Shown here one piece after another: positions 27,520 to 59,436 of a stretch of DNA of 64,000 nucleotides. The stretch covers positions 124,001 to 188,000 of the forward strand of contig NZ_FOCE01000003.1 of assembly GCF_900110025.1 (NCBI RefSeq). Direction: 5' to 3'. Under the pieces are notes generated by a model. The model did not search any database and was not told where the DNA came from. It worked only from the letters and a program-made list of their open reading frames with translations. How positions within the stretch are numbered: position 1 is the stretch's first letter; the number at the start of each line of letters is the position of its first letter. The DNA is from Gemmobacter aquatilis (GTDB lineage: Bacteria; Pseudomonadota; Alphaproteobacteria; Rhodobacterales; Rhodobacteraceae). Made by a program: the position numbers and the translations under genes.

Positions 27520-27602
27520 CCCCTTCATCCTGGCAAAAATACTCATCTTCTGCCTTGCGCCAAGCCGCAGACGAAGATGGGTATTTAAGCAAAGAAGAAG
27601 GG
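27520..27602. repeat. Inverted pair of the GGRTATTT intergenic repeat
   Basis: Left arm (27520-27553) carries a reverse copy of the motif and the complement of the right arm's start: AAATACTCATCTTCTGC against GCAGACGAAGATGGGTATTT. The right copy (27579-27602) reads GGGTATTT, AAG, then CAAAGAAGAAGGG and matches the copies at 51338 and 59413 outside three variable bases. It lies between the 3' ends of the argP-like gene and yebC. Confidence 0.7.
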
Positions 27603-50531: not shown

Positions 50532-51158
50532 TCAGATTTCCTCACGCTGGGTGCGGGCGAACAGGCGCAGGGCGTGGCTGGGATCCTGCGCCACGGGCGG
50601 CAGAACGGGGTCATAGGCCGCGCGGATCAAGGCGCCGATCTCGGGGCGCAGGATCACGGTTTCCCTTACCCGCGCCAAGGCCGAACGGTCGGCAAAGGCG
50701 CGGTCGGACCACAGAAGGATGACCTGCACCGCCTGATTGAGCGCCAATGTATCGGCGGGCACGGCAGAGAGTTCCTCATCCATGCGCAAAAACACGAAGG
50801 CCGCCTTGATCGCGCCCGTGGCATCGAAGCGGAACAGCCGATACTGGTTCGCCCCTACCGCCGCCAGCCGGGCGCAAAGCGGCGCCAGATCGGGCACCAG
50901 CCGGTCGAGATTGGGCACCTCGGGCAGTTCGGCCCAGTCGCGGAAGAAGAACACCATGAGGTTGGCGCCGAGTTCCGGGTCGGTTTCGGCCATGCGATGA
51001 CCGGCCAGCACCACCACCGCCTCTATCGCGCCCTTGACGATGGCAAGCGTGGCATCCTCGACGCCAAAGACCACCGGCACGATGGGGCGGCCCCAGCGGG
51101 CAAACAGAAATTCGCCCGAAGCCCGCGTGAACAAAGCCTGCACCTCTGCCGGGTCCAT
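50532..51158 (-). CDS. Hypothetical protein coupled to ybgC
   Basis: 208-residue soluble-looking protein of unknown function starting MDPAEVQALFTRASGEFLFARWGRPIVPVVFGV. It has no signal peptide or membrane helix and no motif I recognise; the second half is leucine- and arginine-rich (NQAVQVILLWSDRAFADR). It lies one base before ybgC on the same strand, so it is co-translated with a tol-pal enzyme and probably belongs with envelope maintenance. I suspect it is a Rhodobacteraceae-conserved family. Confidence 0.7.
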   Translation of the reverse strand: MDPAEVQALFTRASGEFLFARWGRPIVPVVFGVEDATLAIVKGAIEAVVVLAGHRMAETDPELGANLMVFFFRDWAELPEVPNLDRLVPDLAPLCARLAAVGANQYRLFRFDATGAIKAAFVFLRMDEELSAVPADTLALNQAVQVILLWSDRAFADRSALARVRETVILRPEIGALIRAAYDPVLPPVAQDPSHALRLFARTQREEI

Positions 51159-51240
51159 CCGTCTCTCCCTGCTGGCGGTTTCTGCGGCGGCAATAGGCGG
51201 TTTCGTGTGGAGGCTCAACCATATTGCCTGAAAAGAGCTG

Positions 51241-51361
51241 CCGCCCGGCGGGCATCGAGCCCCGCCGGGCGGCATTGCCATGGATTGCGACACGGGTGGC
51301 GCGAAGATGGACTACATGGAATGCGGTCAGGACGGCTGGGTATTTAGACAAAGAAGAAGGG
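51241..51361 (+). repeat. Two-copy hairpin element, copy A (candidate structured RNA or mobile repeat)
   Basis: Starts with a 12-bp stem (CCGCCCGGCGGG against CCCGCCGGGCGG) closing an ATCGA-containing loop, continues with GGCATTGCCATGG, and ends with the GGRTATTT motif (51338-51361). The ATGG at 51280 and the GGGTATTT at 51338 are 58 bases apart, exactly as in copy B at 59314-59436, while the stem sequence is quite different yet still pairs. Copy A lies in the gap before the MFS gene at 51424, reading in the same direction. Confidence 0.6.
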
Positions 51362-51423
51362 AATTGTGGCGGGAACAATTCCAGCCTCGTCTGTGCGGGC
51401 GGGCGGCGCTAGAAAGGATCATG

Positions 51424-52665
51424 ATGAAGCGCACCCTGCCCCTTTCCGACGCGCAATCCCTGCCGCTGTGGCGCAGGCCGATTGCGCTGCTGTTCCTGAT
51501 GGCCGCCGCCATGCCGCTGGCCTTTTCCACCTGGACGGCGCTGCTGAACAATTTCGTTATCGAGAAGGCCGGGTTTACCGGGGTCGAAATCGGCTGGCTG
51601 CATACGGTGCGCGAGATCCCGGGGCTGCTGGCGGTGGCGGTGATCGCCATTCTGCTGCTGTTCCGCGAACAGGTGCTGGCCGGGGTGATGCTGATCCTGC
51701 TGGGGGTTTCCACCGCCGTGACGGCGTGGTTTCCCACATTGGGCGGCATCATGGCGGTGACGCTGCTGTCCTCCATCGGCTTCCATTATTTCGAGACGGT
51801 GAACCAGTCGCTGCAATTGCAGTGGATCGACCGCAAGGCCGCGCCGAAGACCATCGGCTGGATCGTGGCCATCGGATCGGGCGCCTCGCTGCTGGCTTAC
51901 GGCGCGATCATGCTGACCTGGAAGGCACTGGGGTTAAGCTATAACAGCGTCTATCTGGTGTCGGGCGGTCTGTGCGCCGCCATCGCCGTATTTTGCCTGA
52001 TCGCCTATCCGCAGTTCGAGGCGCCGCATCCGCAGCGCCGCTCCATCGTGCTGCGCCGCCGCTACTGGCTGTATTACGCGCTGCAACTGATGGCCGGCGC
52101 GCGGCGGCAGATCTTCGTCGTGTTCGCCGCCTTCATGATGGTGGAGAAGTTCCATTTCGGGGTAGAGAAGGTGACGGCACTGATGCTGATCAACTTCGTC
52201 GCCAACATGATCGCCGCCCCCTATCTGGGCCGGTTCATCAGCCGCTTTGGCGAACAGAAGGCCATGCTGGTGGAATATGCCGGGCTGTTCTGCGTCTTCC
52301 TGTGCTATGGCGGGCTGTATTGGTATGACTGGGGGGTCTGGGTGGCCGCCGTGCTCTATGTCGTGGATCACCTGTTCTTCGCCATGTCCTTCTCGCAGAA
52401 GACCTATTTCCAGAAGATCGGCGATCCGGCGGACATGGCGCCCACCGCTGCCGTGGCCTTCACCATCAACCATATCGCGGCGGTGTTCCTGCCAGCGGGC
52501 CTTGGCTACCTGTGGATCATGGCGCCCGGCTCGGTGTTCGGGCTGGCGGCGGGCATGGCGGCGATTTCGTTCCTGCTGTCGCTGCTGGTGCCGCGCCACC
52601 CTTCGGCGGGCAACGAGACGCGGTTGACCGGGGGCGACCGCTGGGCGCAAGTTCCGGCAGAGTGA
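51424..52665 (+). CDS. MFS transporter
   Basis: Major facilitator protein of about 413 residues with twelve predicted helices (first pair LLFLMAAAMPLAFSTWTAL and LLAVAVIAILLLF; cytoplasmic mid-loop with RRSIVLRRRYWLYY). No signature fixes the substrate. The ATG at 51424 has AAGGA five bases before it; the frame is open through the repeat element to 51280 but nothing suggests translation there. It stands alone, followed by msrA after 51 bp on the same strand. Confidence 0.8.
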   Translation: MKRTLPLSDAQSLPLWRRPIALLFLMAAAMPLAFSTWTALLNNFVIEKAGFTGVEIGWLHTVREIPGLLAVAVIAILLLFREQVLAGVMLILLGVSTAVTAWFPTLGGIMAVTLLSSIGFHYFETVNQSLQLQWIDRKAAPKTIGWIVAIGSGASLLAYGAIMLTWKALGLSYNSVYLVSGGLCAAIAVFCLIAYPQFEAPHPQRRSIVLRRRYWLYYALQLMAGARRQIFVVFAAFMMVEKFHFGVEKVTALMLINFVANMIAAPYLGRFISRFGEQKAMLVEYAGLFCVFLCYGGLYWYDWGVWVAAVLYVVDHLFFAMSFSQKTYFQKIGDPADMAPTAAVAFTINHIAAVFLPAGLGYLWIMAPGSVFGLAAGMAAISFLLSLLVPRHPSAGNETRLTGGDRWAQVPAE

Positions 52666-52716
52666 TTGGACGCGCGGCGCCGCGCGCCTATATTGAGCCC
52701 AGCACAGGAGGCGCCG

Positions 52717-53370
52717 ATGTTCCAGATGTTCCAAAGCGCGAAGACGAAGATGGTGGACCCGCAAGAGGCCCTGCCGGGCCGCCCCACCCCGCTGCCGCTG
52801 ACCGAGCCGCATTTTATCAGCGGGCTTGACCTGAAATCCCCGGTGCCCGCAGGCTTTGCCGAAGCGATGTTCGGCATGGGCTGTTTCTGGGGGGTAGAGC
52901 GGAAGTTCTGGCAGGTGCCGGGGGTTTGGCTGACCATGGTGGGCTATGCGGGCGGCTATACCCCGAACCCGACCTATCAGGAAACCTGCACCCAGTTGAC
53001 TGGCCATAACGAGGTGGTGCGGGTGATCTTCGACCCTGCAAAGGTCAGCTATGCGGCGCTGCTGCAGCTGTTCTGGGAAAACCACGACCCGACGCAGGGG
53101 ATGCGGCAGGGCAATGATGTTGGATCGACCTACCGCTCTGGCATCTATGTGTATACACCGGAGCAGCAGGCGGCGGCGCAGGCCTCGAAAACCGCCTATC
53201 AGGCAGCGCTGACAGCGGCAGGCAAGGGCACGATCACAACCGAGATCCGCCCTGCCCCGATCTTTTACTATGCCGAGGACTATCATCAGCAATATCTGGC
53301 CAAAAACCCCAATGGCTATTGCGGCATCGGCGGAACGGGTGTGAGCTGCCCCGTGGGCTTGGGCGTCTGA
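52717..53370 (+). CDS. msrA: Peptide methionine sulfoxide reductase MsrA
   Basis: Reduces methionine-S-sulfoxide in oxidised proteins. Catalytic Cys56 in GMGCFWG, the substrate-shape motif NPTYQETC and the [19 protein letters not shown] blocks, and a C-terminal resolving-cysteine region ([12 protein letters not shown]) are present. 217 residues; the extended N-terminus before GCFWG is usual for alphaproteobacterial forms. ATG at 52717 follows a strong AGGAGG. Confidence 0.93.
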
Positions 53371-53391
53371 TCCCGGGTTCGGGAGGGAACG

Positions 53392-54006
53392 ATGGCCAGC
53401 GCATTGGAAGACATCCGCAAGCACCTTGCCGAACTGCGGGCGCGGCTGGACGAGGATCTGGATCACGCGCAGGCGCGGCTCAACTACCGGCTGGACCATG
53501 GCCGCGCGGTGTTCGATGCCGAAGTTCTGGCCCGGCAGCGGGCGCTGCGGGTGCGTCTGGGCACCTTCCTACGCCAGACCCGCCCGCTCGTGGTGCTGAC
53601 CGCGCCGGTGATCTATGCGCTGATCCTGCCCGTTGCGCTGCTGGATCTGGCTGTCAGCCTGTATCAGGCGATCTGCTTTCCGGTTTATGGCATCGCGAAA
53701 GTGCGGCGGCGCGATCACCTTGTGCTGGATCGCCACCTGCTGGCCTATCTCAACCTGCTTCAGAAGCTGAACTGTCTCTATTGCGGCTATTGCAATGGCG
53801 TCATTTCCTATGTGCGCGAGGTCGCGGCGCGAACCGAGCAATACTGGTGCCCGATCAAACATGCCCGCCGCGCCGAGGGGCTGCATGAATGCCATGCCGA
53901 TTTCGCCGATTATGGCGACGCGGAAGACTGGCTGGCCCGCCTGCCAGACCTGCGCGCAGCCCTGCGCCCTCAGGCTGACGAGACGAGACACCGCCCCGCG
54001 CCGTGA
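53392..54006 (+). CDS. Hypothetical membrane protein with a cysteine cluster
   Basis: 204 residues: an N-terminal helical, charged coiled-coil-like segment (about 1-55), two membrane helices (VVLTAPVIYALILPVALLDL and VSLYQAICFPVYGI, about 70-105), then a cytoplasmic part with a clustered C-x2-C-x2-C (CLYCGYC), a further CPIKHA and HECH, suggesting a metal or disulfide site. I do not recognise the family. It sits 21 bp after msrA in the same direction, which makes a redox role possible but unproven. Confidence 0.75.
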   Translation: MASALEDIRKHLAELRARLDEDLDHAQARLNYRLDHGRAVFDAEVLARQRALRVRLGTFLRQTRPLVVLTAPVIYALILPVALLDLAVSLYQAICFPVYGIAKVRRRDHLVLDRHLLAYLNLLQKLNCLYCGYCNGVISYVREVAARTEQYWCPIKHARRAEGLHECHADFADYGDAEDWLARLPDLRAALRPQADETRHRPAP

Positions 54007-54091
54007 GGGCGCCCCACCCCAGCATGTCTGCGCCTTGACGGCGCGGGTCCGCCTGTCTATCGCGGCCTGAACCAGCAGAGGATCCCCACCG

Positions 54092-54964
54092 ATGTCTACC
54101 TTTTCCGCTCTGACCACCCTGACGGGCGAAGACGCCGCTGAATCTCTGGCCGCCGCCATCGAGAAGCTGGACCCGGCGCCCGTCGGCGTGGGCGTGTTCG
54201 AGATCGAGGATGACAGCGGGCTGTGGGAAGTCGGCGCCTATTTCGTGGAACAGCCGAACGAGGTGATGCTCGACGTGCTGGCGCTGGCCTTCGGCGCAAA
54301 GCCTTTCGTGATGTCGGATGTGCCGGATATCGACTGGGTGGCGCATGTGCGCCGCGAGCTTTCGCCGGTGGAGGCGGGCCGGTTCTTCGTCTTCGGCAGC
54401 CATGACGCCGACAAAGTGCCCGAAGGCCGGGTTGCGTTGCAGATCGAGGCGACGGTGGCCTTTGGGACCGGCCACCATGGCACCACGCTGGGCTGCCTGC
54501 GCGCCTTCGACCGGCTGATGGATGCGGGCTTCCGCCCGGCCAAGGTTGCCGATATCGGCTGCGGCACGGCCGTTCTGGCCATGGCGGCGGCATCGGTGCT
54601 GCCCGACGCGCTGGTCATCGCCTCGGATATTGACGAGGTTGCCGTCGATGTTGCCTTGGCGAATGTGGCGATCAACGGGCTGGAAGGCCGGCTGGAATGT
54701 CTGGAGGCTGCAGGTTTCGACGCCGCACGCCTGCAGGAAGCCGGGCCTTATGATCTGGTTTTCGCCAATATCCTGAAAGGCCCGCTGATCGAACTGGCGC
54801 CCGACATGGCCACCCATGTCGCGCCCGGTGGTCTTGTGATTCTGTCGGGCCTGCTGGTGGTGCAGGCCGAGGCAGTGACGGCGGCCTATGAGGCGGTCGG
54901 CTTTACGCTGGAGTCCCGCGAAGATCTTGGCGAATGGTCCGCACTGGTGCTCAAACGCGCCTGA
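54092..54964 (+). CDS. prmA: Ribosomal protein L11 methyltransferase
   Basis: SAM-dependent methyltransferase of 290 residues. Characteristic PrmA blocks: FGTGHHGTTLGCLRAFDRL with the FGTGxHxTT motif, VADIGCGTAVLAMAAA, ASDIDEVAVDVA and the catalytic VFANILKGPLIELA. Target L11. A TTGACG/TATCGC promoter-like pair lies in the 85-bp gap after the preceding hypothetical gene. Confidence 0.92.
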   Translation: MSTFSALTTLTGEDAAESLAAAIEKLDPAPVGVGVFEIEDDSGLWEVGAYFVEQPNEVMLDVLALAFGAKPFVMSDVPDIDWVAHVRRELSPVEAGRFFVFGSHDADKVPEGRVALQIEATVAFGTGHHGTTLGCLRAFDRLMDAGFRPAKVADIGCGTAVLAMAAASVLPDALVIASDIDEVAVDVALANVAINGLEGRLECLEAAGFDAARLQEAGPYDLVFANILKGPLIELAPDMATHVAPGGLVILSGLLVVQAEAVTAAYEAVGFTLESREDLGEWSALVLKRA

Positions 54965-55068
54965 TCGGGTGCAGAAAGACGGCTGAACTGGGGCGCACGC
55001 CCTAGTTTTGCCACATTTTAGCCCCAAAAGTGATACTTGGGTGGGGGCTGTATCGTGGAGTAATCGGT

Positions 55069-55410
55069 ATGGCCGGGCAGGATCTGTCTGAATTTTACGC
55101 GCGGCTTGCGCGTATCGAAGATGCACGCGCGAAGGGGCATGGCTTCGAGGCCGACGGCACCTTGGGGCGATCTTATTACACAAAACCATCTCGCAAGCGC
55201 AGTCGTCTGATCGGGCCTCTGCTGGTCATTCTCGCCTGTGGCACCGGCTTGAAAGCGTCGATGTACTACCAGATCGGGTCCGCCTCCTACCTTGATCGCG
55301 TGGAACGGATGCGGGAAAGCGAAGGTTTCGCGCGTCTGGGCGGGTTTCTGATGCAGGCCGATCCTGTCACGGTTCAGACCTCCGCCTTGATCGACCGACT
55401 GCTGCATTGA
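55069..55410 (+). CDS. Hypothetical single-pass membrane protein
   Basis: 113 residues beginning MAGQDLSEFYARLARIE with one membrane helix (about 47-65, RLIGPLLVILACGTGLKASMY) preceded by a basic KPSRKRSR that should orient the N-terminus inside, and a short periplasmic tail. Unknown family; size, gene position and topology resemble small division- or envelope-associated proteins of Rhodobacteraceae, but that is impression only. GGAG lies eight bases before the ATG. It follows prmA by 104 bp. Confidence 0.65.
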   Translation: MAGQDLSEFYARLARIEDARAKGHGFEADGTLGRSYYTKPSRKRSRLIGPLLVILACGTGLKASMYYQIGSASYLDRVERMRESEGFARLGGFLMQADPVTVQTSALIDRLLH

Positions 55411-55462
55411 ACACGGGGCTTGGCACCAATCCTGCCCGTCCGTCATCCGCACCAGATACCAG

Positions 55463-55493
55463 AAAGGCCGCCCCCCTTGCGGAGTGCGGCCTT
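55463..55493 (-). terminator. Terminator-like hairpin of the DUF1127 gene
   Basis: AAGGCCGC (55464-55471) pairs with GCGGCCTT (55486-55493); on the minus strand it is followed by TTTC. It is about 55 bp past the DUF1127 stop. Confidence 0.6.
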
Positions 55494-55548
55494 CGGCATC
55501 GGAGTGGAATATTCTGCGGGGCATTCTGCGCCCCATCGGGATGACAGA

Positions 55549-55764
55549 TCAGACGCGGGCTTTCGCCCCGATCAGATCAATGTCACCGCGGCAAAGCCCG
55601 ATATCGTCAAGCTCGCGATCCGACAGCTTTTCCAGCGTGTTACGGGTCACGCGCGCGTCGTTCCATTCGGCGACGGCAGCAACGATGTTGCCCACGAACT
55701 GGATGAAGCGGAAAGTCGCGATAGCGCCGAAGGGCGCCGTCCGGGTAGTCTCATAAGCGGCCAT
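55549..55764 (-). CDS. DUF1127 small protein
   Basis: 71-residue protein ending in the DUF1127 block TLEKLSDRELDDIGLCRGDID, preceded by a helix with FIQFVGNIVAAVAEWND. Such proteins are abundant in alphaproteobacteria; one in Rhodobacter (CcaF1) binds RNA and affects its turnover, others affect phosphate metabolism. ATG at 55764 is preceded by GAGGA; the frame is open nine codons further. The 305-bp gap upstream has palindromes (see the next entry). Confidence 0.85.
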   Translation of the reverse strand: MAAYETTRTAPFGAIATFRFIQFVGNIVAAVAEWNDARVTRNTLEKLSDRELDDIGLCRGDIDLIGAKARV

Positions 55765-56069
55765 GGCGGTCCTCGTTTTCAAACTGCTCACATCGAAGGC
55801 GTTCTTGCCTTCGCAACGTCAGATAATCGGGCGCAGTATGTATCGCAAGCAAAGCCCGCGCATGTCGCACTTGCAGAAACTGCATGGCTCATCGCCTTTT
55901 GCGTCATATTGGTTTCATCCCGCAATGCCCCCGCAAGCTTGTGTCGCTTGCGACACGGGAAGGGTCGGAAACGATACTCCGGCGCCGCACCTGACCCGGC
56001 TGAAATTGCCGTTGGCCCCTCTTAACCTTTCGTGCTAGCGTGGGGCAAACCAAGAACAAAGGGTCGCGG
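55765..56069 (-). promoter_or_regulatory. 305-bp gap between DUF1127 and ruvC with two dyads
   Basis: No gene is visible here. CGAAGGC / GCCTTCG (55794-55813) forms a seven-base hairpin in the DUF1127 leader about 30-50 bases before its start, and GTGTCGCTTGCGACAC (55941-55956) is a perfect dyad suited to a dimeric regulator. Both the DUF1127 and, in the other direction, ruvC must start here. A stress-type promoter is plausible for the former; I did not find a clean sigma-32 match. Confidence 0.45.
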
Positions 56070-56588
56070 ATGCGGGTGATGGGCATTGATCCGGGGTTGC
56101 GTAACCTCGGATGGGGGGTGATCGACGTGCAGGGCGTGCGACTCACCCATGTCGCCAATGGCATCTGCCATTCCGCCCCCGGCGAAGGCGACGGCGATCT
56201 GGCGCAGCGCCTGCTGAGCCTGCACAGCCAGTTGACCGAGGTGTTGCGCCTGTGGCAGCCCGATACGGCGGCGGTGGAACATACCTTCGTCAACAAGGAT
56301 GCGGTGGCGACGCTGAAACTGGGCCAGGCGCGCGGCATCGCGCTGCTGGTGCCCGCGCAATTCGGGCTGACGGTCGGGGAATATGCGCCCAACGCGGTGA
56401 AAAAGACGGTGGTCGGTGTGGGTCATGCCGCCAAGGTGCAGATCGACCATATGGTGCGCCTGCATCTGCCGGGGGTAAAGATCGCAGGGCCGGACGCGGC
56501 GGATGCGCTTGCGATCGCGATCTGCCACGCGCATCACACGCAAAGCAGCACGCGGCTGCAAGATGCGCTTCGGAGGGCGGCAGGATGA
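56070..56588 (+). CDS. ruvC: Holliday-junction resolvase RuvC
   Basis: 172-residue endonuclease that cuts Holliday junctions. Four acidic active-site residues are in place: Asp7 (GIDPGL), Glu70 (AAVEHTF), Asp142 and Asp145 (GPDAADALA). The ATG at 56070 ([10 protein letters not shown]) gives the right length; the open frame starts at 56040 but adds only ten residues. Its stop overlaps the ruvA start. Confidence 0.94.
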
Positions 56589-57262
56589 TCGGCAAGATCT
56601 CGGGGCGGATCGACCATCGCGGGTCGGATCATGTGCTGATCGACGTGCGCGGCGTGGGGTATATCGTGCATGTGTCAGACCGGACACTGGCCGCCCTGCC
56701 CGGTGTGGGTGAGGCTTGCGCGCTGTATACAGAACTGCTGGTGCGCGAGGATCTGCTGCAACTGTTCGGCTTCCCCACCCTGCTGGAAAAGGAATGGCAC
56801 CGCCTGCTGATGACTGTGCAGGGCGTGGGTGCCAAGGCCGCGATGGCAATCCTCAGCGCGCTTGGCGCCGAAGGGGCCGCGCGGGCAATCACGCTGGGCG
56901 ATGCGCGCGCCATTCAGGCCGCCCCCGGCGTCGGCCCGAAACTGGCGCAGCGCGTGGTGCTGGAGCTGAAGGCGAAGGCGCCCGGCGTCATGGCCAAGGG
57001 CGCCAGCCTGCTGTCGGACCCCGTGCTGGATGAGGTGATCGAGGCGCCCTCCCCCCCCACCGCCAGGCCAGCCGCGAAACCCGCCCCCAAAGGCGCCGCC
57101 CGCGCAGCCTATAGTGCCGATGCACTGTCGGCGCTGCTGAACCTGGGCTATCAGCAAGGCGATGCGGCGCAGGCCGTGGCCACGGCAGCGGCAGAGGCGC
57201 CCGAGGCCGATACCGCAAGTTTGATCCGCCTGTCGTTGAAACTGCTGATGCCCAAGGCTTGA
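56585..57262 (+). CDS. ruvA: Holliday-junction DNA-binding protein RuvA
   Basis: 225-residue branch-migration subunit that holds the junction for RuvB. Starts [21 protein letters not shown] with the OB-fold, then two helix-hairpin-helix motifs ([37 protein letters not shown]), an Ala/Pro/Lys linker and the C-terminal RuvB-contact domain. ATG overlaps the ruvC stop. The next gene is htpX, not ruvB. Confidence 0.94.
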
Positions 57263-57305
57263 GGCCGGGCTTGCCCCCGCCCATATCCGGGGCAGGAGGT
57301 GCCAG

Positions 57306-58214
57306 ATGGTGGGTTATGTGAAAACGGCAATGCTGATGGCGGCGATGACCGCGCTGTTCATGGGGATCGGCGCGTTGATCGGCGGCAGTTCGGGGGCGGT
57401 GATCGCGCTGGTTCTGGCCGGGGCGATGAACCTGTTCACCTATTGGAACAGCGACAAGGCGGTGCTGCGGATGAACGGCGCCCGCGCTGTCGATGACCGC
57501 ACGGCGCCGGATTTTGTGCGTCTGGTCCATGATCTGGCCGACCGGGCCGGGATGCCGCGCCCGAAGGTCTATCTGATCGACACCGATCAGCCCAACGCCT
57601 TTGCCACCGGCCGCAACCCGCAAAACGCCGCCGTGGCGGCCACCACCGGCCTGCTGCGCCGCCTGACCCGCGAGGAAATCGCGGGCGTGATGGCGCATGA
57701 GCTGGCGCATATCCAGAACCGCGATACGCTGACCATGACGATCACCGCGACCATGGCGGGTGCAATCTCGATGCTGGCTAATTTCGCGTTCTTCTTCGGT
57801 GGCAACCGCGAGCGGGAGGGCGGGGTTCTGGGTGGCCTTGTGGTGATGATCTTCGCCCCCATGGCGGCGGCGCTGGTGCAGATGGCAATCTCGCGTTCCC
57901 GAGAATACGAGGCGGACCGGCTTGGCGCCGCAATCTGCGGCCAGCCGCTGTGGCTGGCGGCGGCACTGGCCAAGATCGACGCCTTTGCCAAGGGCATCGA
58001 CAACCCGGCAGCCGAGGCGAACCCGGCCATGGCGCATATGTTCATCATCAACCCGCTGCATGCCCATGCGCGCGATGCGCTGTTTTCCACCCACCCCGCC
58101 ACCGCGAACCGCATCGCGGCGCTGCAAGCGATGGTGGGAAGCGCGGCGCCGCAAACCGCCCGGATGGCCCGCAGCTCCATCCCGCGCGTCAGCCGCAAGA
58201 GGCCGTGGAGCTGA
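57306..58214 (+). CDS. htpX: HtpX-like M48 membrane metalloprotease
   Basis: Heat-shock membrane protease, 302 residues. Two N-terminal helices (about 5-45), zinc site HELAH (His131, Glu132, His135) and a third ligand Glu in [10 protein letters not shown], two further helices between ([21 protein letters not shown] and [15 protein letters not shown]). AGGAGG precedes the ATG. It is inserted between ruvA and ruvB and ends 46 bp before ruvB, so it is likely co-transcribed with the ruv genes. Confidence 0.9.
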
Positions 58215-58260
58215 CGCTTCGCGCTTGCCAAATCGGCCACGTTCAGGGATTGTTCCGCCC

Positions 58261-59289
58261 ATGAGCCAGTCCGATCCCACCCTGCGCCCGGAACGTCTGC
58301 CGGAAGATACCGACCGCGCCCTGCGCCCGCAGGTGCTGGCGGATTTCGTGGGTCAGGCCGAGGCGCGCGCCAATCTGCGCATCTTCATCGAAAGCGCCAA
58401 GATGCGCGGCGAGGCGATGGACCACACGCTGTTCCACGGCCCGCCCGGCCTTGGCAAGACGACGCTGGCACAGATCATGGCGCGGGAACTGGGGGTGGGG
58501 TTCCGCATGACCTCTGGCCCGGTGCTGGCGAAGCCGGGCGATCTTGCGGCGATCCTGACCAATCTGGAACCGCGCGACGTGCTGTTCATCGACGAGATCC
58601 ACCGGCTTTCCCCCGTGGTGGAAGAGGTGCTGTATCCGGCGATGGAGGATTTCGCGCTGGATCTGGTGATTGGCGAAGGCCCTGCCGCACGGACGGTGCG
58701 GATTGAATTGCAACCCTTCACACTGGTCGGCGCCACCACGCGCCTTGGCCTGCTGACCACGCCGTTGCGCGACCGGTTCGGCATCCCCACCCGGCTGCAA
58801 TTCTATACCGAAGACGAGCTGGACCTGATCGTGAACCGTGGCGCCCGGCTGCTGGGGGTGGAACCCACGGCAGAGGGCACGCGCGAGATTGCCCGCCGCG
58901 CCCGCGGCACCCCGCGGATCGCCGGGCGGCTGCTGCGCCGCGTGGTGGATTTCGTGACGGTGGAAGGCGACGGGCGGCTGACTCAGGCAATCTCTGACCG
59001 GGCGCTGACGCGGATGGGGGTCGATCTGCTGGGCCTCGACAGTGCAGACCGCCGCTACATGTTGCTGCTGGCAGAAAATTACGGCGGTGGGCCGGTGGGG
59101 GTGGAGACGATTGCCGCCGCGCTGTCGGAAAGCCGCGATGCAATCGAAGAGGTGATCGAGCCCTATCTGTTGCAACAGGGCCTGATCCAGCGCACCCCGC
59201 GCGGGCGGATGCTGGCGGCCAAAGCCTGGCGCCATATCGGGCTGGAGCCGCCCAAGGCCCCCGCACAGGCCGGGTTGTTCGACCTTTAA
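58261..59289 (+). CDS. ruvB: Holliday-junction branch-migration helicase RuvB
   Basis: AAA+ motor of 342 residues that drives branch migration with RuvA. Starts [16 protein letters not shown], then [20 protein letters not shown], Walker A GPPGLGKT, Walker [11 protein letters not shown], sensor [15 protein letters not shown] and the C-terminal winged helix with [16 protein letters not shown]. Right behind its stop lies copy B of the hairpin element. Confidence 0.95.
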
Positions 59290-59313
59290 GGCAAGCGCCT
59301 GTCAGACAGGGGC

Positions 59314-59436
59314 GCCTTTCTTGGGGGCATCGAGCCCCCGCGAAAGGCATTGCCATGGGCAGCGGCGCGGGCTGTGCAGCGGCCCAATGGCAGCCTTGCG
59401 GCTCGGTCGCATGGGTATTTGGGCAAAGAAGAAGGG
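59314..59436 (+). repeat. Two-copy hairpin element, copy B
   Basis: Stem GCCTTTC-TT-GGGGGC / GCCCCC-GC-GAAAGGC around the loop ATCGA (59314-59348), then GGCATTGCCATGG, then GGGTATTT at 59413 with the 24-base motif ending immediately before the priA stop codon. The loop, the GGCATTGCCATGG block, a TGCGG block and the motif match copy A at the same spacing; the stem bases do not, yet pair. It lies between the ends of convergent ruvB and priA. Confidence 0.6.

Follow-up and report, generated by a model that had tools for sequence, protein, structure and literature searches.

The 64,000-nucleotide stretch of Gemmobacter aquatilis DNA analyzed here (contig NZ_FOCE01000003.1, positions 124,001 to 188,000; hereafter the window) carries two copies, A and B, of a short intergenic element that we call the head. 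The head represents an apparently undescribed family of small folded intergenic elements, about a dozen of which occur in the host genome. A preliminary description of the window had drawn the hairpin on the plus strand; for every element we call the corresponding strand the top strand, and it is the complementary strand that is selected to fold. Our favored, tentative reading, to which we assign a probability of a little under 0.4, is that the head is a one-way transcript-end element that, probably together with Rho, halts RNA polymerase before the enzyme enters a gene's end from the opposite direction. Family, covariation, folding strand and genomic position are observed; from these we infer an RNA that would act in termination, the involvement of Rho and the purpose of the element.

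A family of folded elements in Rhodobacteraceae

The head, GGCATCGAGCC..ATTGCCATGG, occurred in 9 exact copies in the host genome and in none in the control. Covariance model R1 gave 12 copies in the same genome, so that what had been described as a two-copy element is a family. At E ≤ 0.001, R1 had matches in 27 of 121 relatives, with up to 19 copies in one of them (G246), and a wider model, R2, matched 33 of 292 genomes and 21 of 112 genera at E ≤ 0.0001; single weak matches to either model among these carriers may be due to chance. An exact-pattern scan of GTDB genomes returned 63 stretches. The 45 kept came from Gemmobacter, Pseudorhodobacter, Tabrizicola, Pseudotabrizicola, Cereibacter changlensis, Fertoeibacter, Fuscovulum and other Rhodobacteraceae; the remaining 18, from other bacterial groups, were taken on visual inspection for chance matches, the majority coding-like, and were dropped before analysis. 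Duplicate sequences were removed before counting, and the full set comprised 169 distinct elements. Alignment A3, used below, holds 81 sequences after exclusion of 17 of the 98 R1 matches for length or identity.

No Rfam 15 family matched within the window. In two sets of 10 loci each, a search at E ≤ 1 returned above the cut-off solely tRNA and two SAM/SAH riboswitches, away from the heads. Far below the cut-off, PyrR204 (23.8 of 71 bits) overlapped one head, in L064, and there was an overlap with one pair of copies of the tail, a second motif described below, in L040. Searches of the open-licence literature listed no title or abstract describing the head or the tail, a weak negative given that subscription papers lay outside their scope. 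By exact pattern, the head was present in 0 and the tail in 1 of the IMG/VR contigs, and a link to phage was dismissed. Twenty protein queries (19 different proteins, two without a match) gave no sign of a common pathway among neighboring genes, which include metK, purK, truB, ruvB, priA, uvrA, alr, fabF, an FAA hydrolase and a hisN-like gene. The two riboswitches (RF01727; L173:2735-2783 and L098:4723-4770) both lie in loci in which a head follows metK.

Two hairpins with compensatory changes

On the folded strand the main stem of 15 pairs consists of a 7-pair lower stem, a 2x2 site (tandem G.A or, in about half of copies, Watson-Crick) and a 6-pair upper stem, capped by the loop UCRAU and followed by NCC. 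The stem sequence differs from copy to copy within the host genome while the pairing is kept. In 54 sequences the covariation score was 0.278, compared with 0.080 after shuffling and at most 0.099 when slid, and 11 of the 15 stem pairs varied on both sides. The loop core and the flank were fixed by the search pattern in this set, which makes their constancy there uninformative; the model searches were less bound. For the full structure in A3 the score was 0.478 compared with 0.160 after shuffling, and two-sided pairing changes (254 cells) far outnumbered one-sided wobbles (31 cells).

The flank ATTGCCATGG forms a second hairpin of two pairs, RY-TGCC-RY, whose pairs vary jointly. In A3 (n=81), pair 3-10 was AU in 43 sequences, GC in 35 and other in 3, and pair 4-9 was UA in 55, CG in 24 and other in 2; 96.9% of cells were paired, with two main pair types for each pair. 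The pair closing the main loop on the folded strand was C-G in 67, U.G in 13 and other in 1, and G-C was also seen by eye in L306, L272 and L275. A resemblance to the tRNA T-loop (YUCGAUG, T-arm-like) was considered and dropped because these outer two bases pair, leaving UCRAU as the loop. The loop filter fitted 166 of the 169 elements, and their folded-strand loops were UCGAU (156), UCAAU (8), UCGAA (1) and UUGAU (1).

On either strand, both window copies had lower folding energy than every one of 200 shuffles (z between -3.55 and -4.74). A conserved structured family whose fold is under selection is strongly supported by these data. The preliminary description had taken the differing but paired stems of its two copies as the mark of a selected structure and proposed a covariance-model search; that search yielded many copies with compensatory changes. 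Six heads of a second type (L010, L207, L212, L214, L215 and L216) have an extra inner hairpin, and in all six the folded strand shows, by eye, the tandem G.A site.

The complementary strand folds

A G.U pair on one strand is an A.C mismatch on the other, and G.A likewise becomes C.T. The core pairs of a first set of 103 elements, read on the top strand, included 28 A.C and 3 G.U, that is, 28 G.U and 3 A.C on the complement. The 64 elements outside this set gave 16 G.U and 5 A.C, and 56 G.A and 0 C.T, on the complementary strand. When 137 usable elements of the 169 were pooled, the complementary strand carried 36 core G.U and 9 A.C, and, with the central G.A included, 140 G.A and 4 C.T; R2 was built on that strand and could slightly favor its wobbles, and members of the first set were retrieved with the exact pattern and with R1, which was built on the top strand. 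The other 32 elements were left out for arm length or loop. Loop filters in these counts constrain the closing-pair bases, so that closing-pair contrasts are not drawn from them; the closing-pair figures above were taken from the unfiltered alignment A3.

Related copies are not independent, and counts were therefore also made per locus group (n=81): G.U exceeded A.C in 22 groups, with the reverse in 5 and a tie in 54, and G.A exceeded C.T in 45, with the reverse in 1 and a tie in 35. Folding energy relative to fully paired versions favored the complementary strand in 81 of 110 elements and disfavored it in 17; for raw energy the split was 80 to 30. Elements with both neighbors on the top strand (33 usable) still showed 8 G.U and 3 A.C, and 17 G.A and 1 C.T, on the complementary strand.

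The complementary strand is thus the strand selected to fold, and the assignment of the structure to the plus strand in the preliminary description is reversed. Were the element simply a stretch of a neighbor's mRNA, the preference would be expected to track gene orientation. As the preference is independent of gene orientation, the folded molecule would be an RNA made against the neighboring genes, a separate RNA, or DNA.

Placement next to stop codons

Gene calls were made with a purpose-written codon-usage caller. Among the 165 elements outside called genes, the neighboring genes were convergent at 72 and divergent at 13; tandem neighbors accounted for 41 in one orientation and 38 in the other, and 1 element lay at an open end. 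For comparison, the 31 window spacers of at least 60 nt were 4 convergent, 20 tandem and 7 divergent. Where a gene upstream ran in the same direction, in the sense of the top strand, 78 of 114 elements began within 15 nt of its stop codon, counting a 5-nt flank; a stop within 15 nt on the opposite side was seen for 6 of 110. Eight pairs of elements were less than 600 nt apart, 6 of them inverted with one polarity, 2 in tandem and none inverted with the opposite polarity. The six inverted pairs (L154, L269, L270, L282, L305 and L310) were spaced 117-310 nt apart.

Of the 81 locus groups, 32 spanned at least two genomes and 13 at least three; grouping was by single linkage, and a large group may merge different genes. 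Compensatory versions were found in place at shared loci after truB, metK and ruvB. The following sites were checked by protein identity. After metK, at 10 loci in different genomes, the flank was GTTGCCAC in 6, ATTGCCAT in 2, GCTGCCGC in 1 and unpaired in 1. After truB, the 6 loci had ATTGCCAT (4), GCTGCCGC (1) and ACTGCCGT (1). After purK, the 8 loci of the first list had ATTGCCAT, as set by the construction of the scan, and 4 further loci of the second list had ATTGCCAT, GTTGCCAC, an unpaired and a shortened flank, one each. The site of copy B after ruvB was common to G246 (ATTGCCAT) and G073 (GTTGCCAC), with priA adjoining in the host genome only. The site is kept while the other neighbor changes, indicating that the element is tied to the gene past whose stop codon it lies.

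Two genomes, each made up of 7 contigs, had every R1 match on the contig that carries dnaA (G246, 19 of 19 on C1; G094, 15 of 15 on C4). A replication-oriented site was rejected as a general explanation: 15 of 19 heads in G246 and 8 of 15 in G094 were co-directional with replication, by a hand count that took dnaA as the origin and placed the terminus opposite. Within about 0.46 Mb of dnaA, a hand count gave 0 heads in G246 and 2 of 15 in G094.

A possible one-way end to transcription

In the favored reading, RNA made from the strand opposite the top strand would fold the mini-hairpin RY(GGCA)RY first and the long hairpin next. C-rich RNA ahead of the head may load Rho, while the hairpin would pause the polymerase, shield the new 3' end, or both. 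RNA heading for the 3' end of a gene, whether from a convergent neighbor or as spurious antisense, would be halted just before the stop codon; at the remaining sites the element may halt ordinary sense read-through. Ahead of the hairpin, the presumed RNA strand had more C than G in 102 of 130 elements, with the opposite in 25 and no difference in 3. A one-way end element would account for the closeness to stop codons, the bias toward convergent sites, the indifference to the other neighbor and the outward-facing pairs.

Several observations weigh against the transcript-end reading. A U-run after the hairpin is absent on both strands, and the head is therefore not an intrinsic terminator: the top strand continues as RYTGCCRYGG and the other strand as N-C-C, with C in 97 and 92 of 110 elements at the two positions. 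At four loci after truB (L068, L080, L108 and L116), the next gene in the same direction starts only 18-64 nt beyond the element, so that a second transcript would have scant space. On the top strand near metK, a hairpin resembling a terminator was seen by eye past the head, so that the sense mRNA there would also cross the head. Conservation of the loops points to a specific partner, which a plain terminator could do without, and C-richness is weak evidence for Rho. Pairing is missing from some mini-hairpins (for example, L298 and L301). The two central positions of the stem show the reverse strand preference, with 17 A.C and 4 G.U in the pooled set and 7 and 2 in the 64-element set. Elements between divergent genes (11 usable) gave 0 G.U and 1 A.C, although 11 G.A and 0 C.T; they are too few for a G.U count.

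The known activity nearest to the one proposed is that of the inhibitory RNA-polymerase aptamers (iRAPs) of E. coli. iRAPs are nascent-RNA elements, many of them antisense, which work together with Rho and limit antisense transcription (PMC7858274, PMC5865726), and the aptamers were identified by binding and share no single common motif (PMC5865726). The likeness would lie in the proposed way of working only: the head is one conserved intergenic fold, iRAPs lack a common motif, and binding of polymerase by the head is hypothetical.

A bolder version of the transcript-end reading, which we consider unlikely, is that heads are lineage-wide one-way RNA "stop blocks", in which the conserved two-hairpin fold, facing outward from gene 3' ends, recruits a specific partner (the polymerase or an RNA-binding protein) and cuts off convergent and antisense transcription. 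They would then form an inherited equivalent, defined by sequence, of the scattered E. coli iRAPs. If the transcript-end reading holds, a dedicated and recognizable RNA fold guards gene ends against head-on transcription in these bacteria, and antisense control becomes testable element by element. Whatever its function, the family is well defined: its loops are conserved, shared loci show compensatory changes, the strand is clear, and a working covariance model and 169 distinct examples are available.

Alternative explanations

A serious rival, though one that we also hold to be improbable, is a single-stranded or cruciform DNA site, in which one strand folds as DNA and is bound by a protein involved in chromosome handling or repair, or by an unknown recombinase. 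A strand preference that ignores gene orientation is consistent with such a site, and pairing as DNA would agree with the rarity of one-sided wobble. Among DNA mismatches, too, G.T and G.A are the milder ones. The confinement of heads to the dnaA contig in two genomes points the same way, but core genes likewise favor the main chromosome. The inconsistent replication orientation argues against a DNA site, as does the lack of a Y1 transposase (PF01797), of which there were 0 in the host genome (G000), 0 in 6 of 7 other carriers and 5 in G244. Closeness to stop codons fits transcription more naturally.

Small RNA genes on the complementary strand, with the two-hairpin module at their 3' end, seem to us a less probable explanation again. 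The strand preference holds in the convergent and both tandem contexts, copy numbers reach those of multi-copy small RNA families, and the distance to the tail is fairly constant where a tail exists. Against this, inspection by eye of three ortholog groups showed no conserved promoter, the spacer between head and tail being unconserved there; most tails occur without a head, and 73 of 118 heads had no identified tail.

It is quite doubtful that the head is a 3'-UTR hairpin or terminator of the preceding gene, acting on the top strand. The short distance to that gene's stop codon in most cases agrees with this explanation, as does the apparent intrinsic terminator downstream near metK on the same strand. 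The mismatch types favor the other strand, however, tandem sites are divided almost evenly by orientation, and no U-run follows the hairpin. Intrinsic (Rho-independent) terminators are GC-rich hairpins near stop codons followed by a U-run. The head has in common with them a GC-rich hairpin shortly past a stop codon; it differs in lacking the U-run on either strand and in having a conserved loop and a second hairpin.

The weakest candidate is a mobile palindromic repeat of the repetitive extragenic palindrome (REP) type, now inactive, which we think very unlikely. REP sequences and bacterial interspersed mosaic elements, with their RAYT transposase, are intergenic, are few between divergent genes, form some inverted pairs, and have a strand-specific hairpin with a short conserved flank. 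The head shares this siting and form and occurs in several copies per genome with a convergent bias and a single polarity among its inverted pairs, but it has no RAYT in its own genome, far fewer copies, and stems that vary and covary between copies while loop and flank are conserved. The presence of 32 locus groups in two or more genomes and the absence of heads, by exact pattern, from IMG/VR also tell against it. An active RAYT-type mobile repeat, the form in which the mobile palindrome of the preliminary description was considered, is unlikely given the differing stems, the shared loci and the missing Y1 transposase, and was rejected.

Among hairpins known from the same order, the HRC-8-4 motif is described as restricted to Rhodobacterales, with conserved nucleotides at its tip, located mainly between cco operons and generally ending in a U-run (PMC8632094). 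Lineage and conserved tip are shared with the head; the head differs in its many unrelated neighbors and its lack of a U-run, and the two are set apart by description rather than by sequence.

The two window copies and the separate tail motif

Both copies were present where the preliminary description had placed them; their main hairpins begin at 51240 and 59314 (Table 1). As it had stated, neither is coding: the codon-usage calls leave 51159-51420 and 59290-59436 non-coding, with flanking genes that end at 51158 and 59289 and resume at 51421 and 59437. The neighbors of copy B were named RuvB and PriA by NCBIfam. Genes beside copy A had no NCBIfam match, and the MFS label given to the gene at 51421 is unconfirmed. 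Copy B was said to end exactly at the priA stop codon; it adjoins that stop, with the tail motif ending 2 nt before it.

Table 1. Head and tail features in the window (plus, top strand; minus, reverse complement, the folded strand at copies A and B)
Feature	Position	Strand	Remarks
Copy A, whole head	51235..51283	minus (folded)	49 nt; R1 match 60.4 bits, G000:C23:175235-175283; z -4.74 on minus
Copy A, head layout		minus	CC, mini-hairpin RY(GGCA)RY, main hairpin, NCC side
Copy A, main hairpin	51240..51273	minus	loop ATCGA at 51254-51258 (UCGAU on folded strand)
Copy A, mini-hairpin flank ATTGCCATGG	51274..51283	minus	pairs 1-8 and 2-7 around TGCC
Copy A, tail motif GGGTATTTNNNCAAAGAAGAAG	51338..51359	plus	
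Copy B, whole head	59309..59358	minus (folded)	50 nt; R1 match 71.7 bits, G000:C23:183309-183358; z -4.16 on minus
Copy B, main hairpin	59314..59348	minus	loop ATCGA at 59329-59333
Copy B, mini-hairpin flank ATTGCCATGG	59349..59358	minus	
Copy B, tail motif	59413..59434	plus	ends 2 nt short of priA stop
Third exact tail motif	27579..27600	plus	no head seen alongside

The preliminary description had treated head and tail as one element. Both parts are present in each copy, but they are separate modules: the tail is a separate, commoner motif, often about 57 nt from the head. In the 3.96-Mb host genome GGGTATTTNNNCAAAGAAGAAG had 31 exact matches and 40 with at most 1 mismatch, compared with 0 for the reversed pattern; in the window, 4 matches with at most 3 mismatches compare with a shuffle mean of 0.00. 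By eye, about 10 of the 40 tails come after a head, and the rest are preceded by other, largely GC-rich sequence. Tails were located for 45 of 118 heads. The distance from the A of ATGG to GGGTATTT, described as a fixed 58 bases, is exact in both copies, but across the family it is typical rather than fixed, with TATTT lying 50-62 nt past the head end in 29 of the 45.

The tail spelling GAGTATTTNNNCAAAGAAGAAG matched 15 of 41 genomes of the order at no more than 2 mismatches, ten of them with 14 to 103 copies, and spellings were genus-specific. Inverted tail pairs about 40 nt apart were found among the matches listed. In the host genome, 9 of 27 tails that face a stop codon on the other strand do so at a distance of 2-9 nt. 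Tail-to-tail inverted pairs between genes were also seen at L027, L034 and L040, and these may be bidirectional ends.

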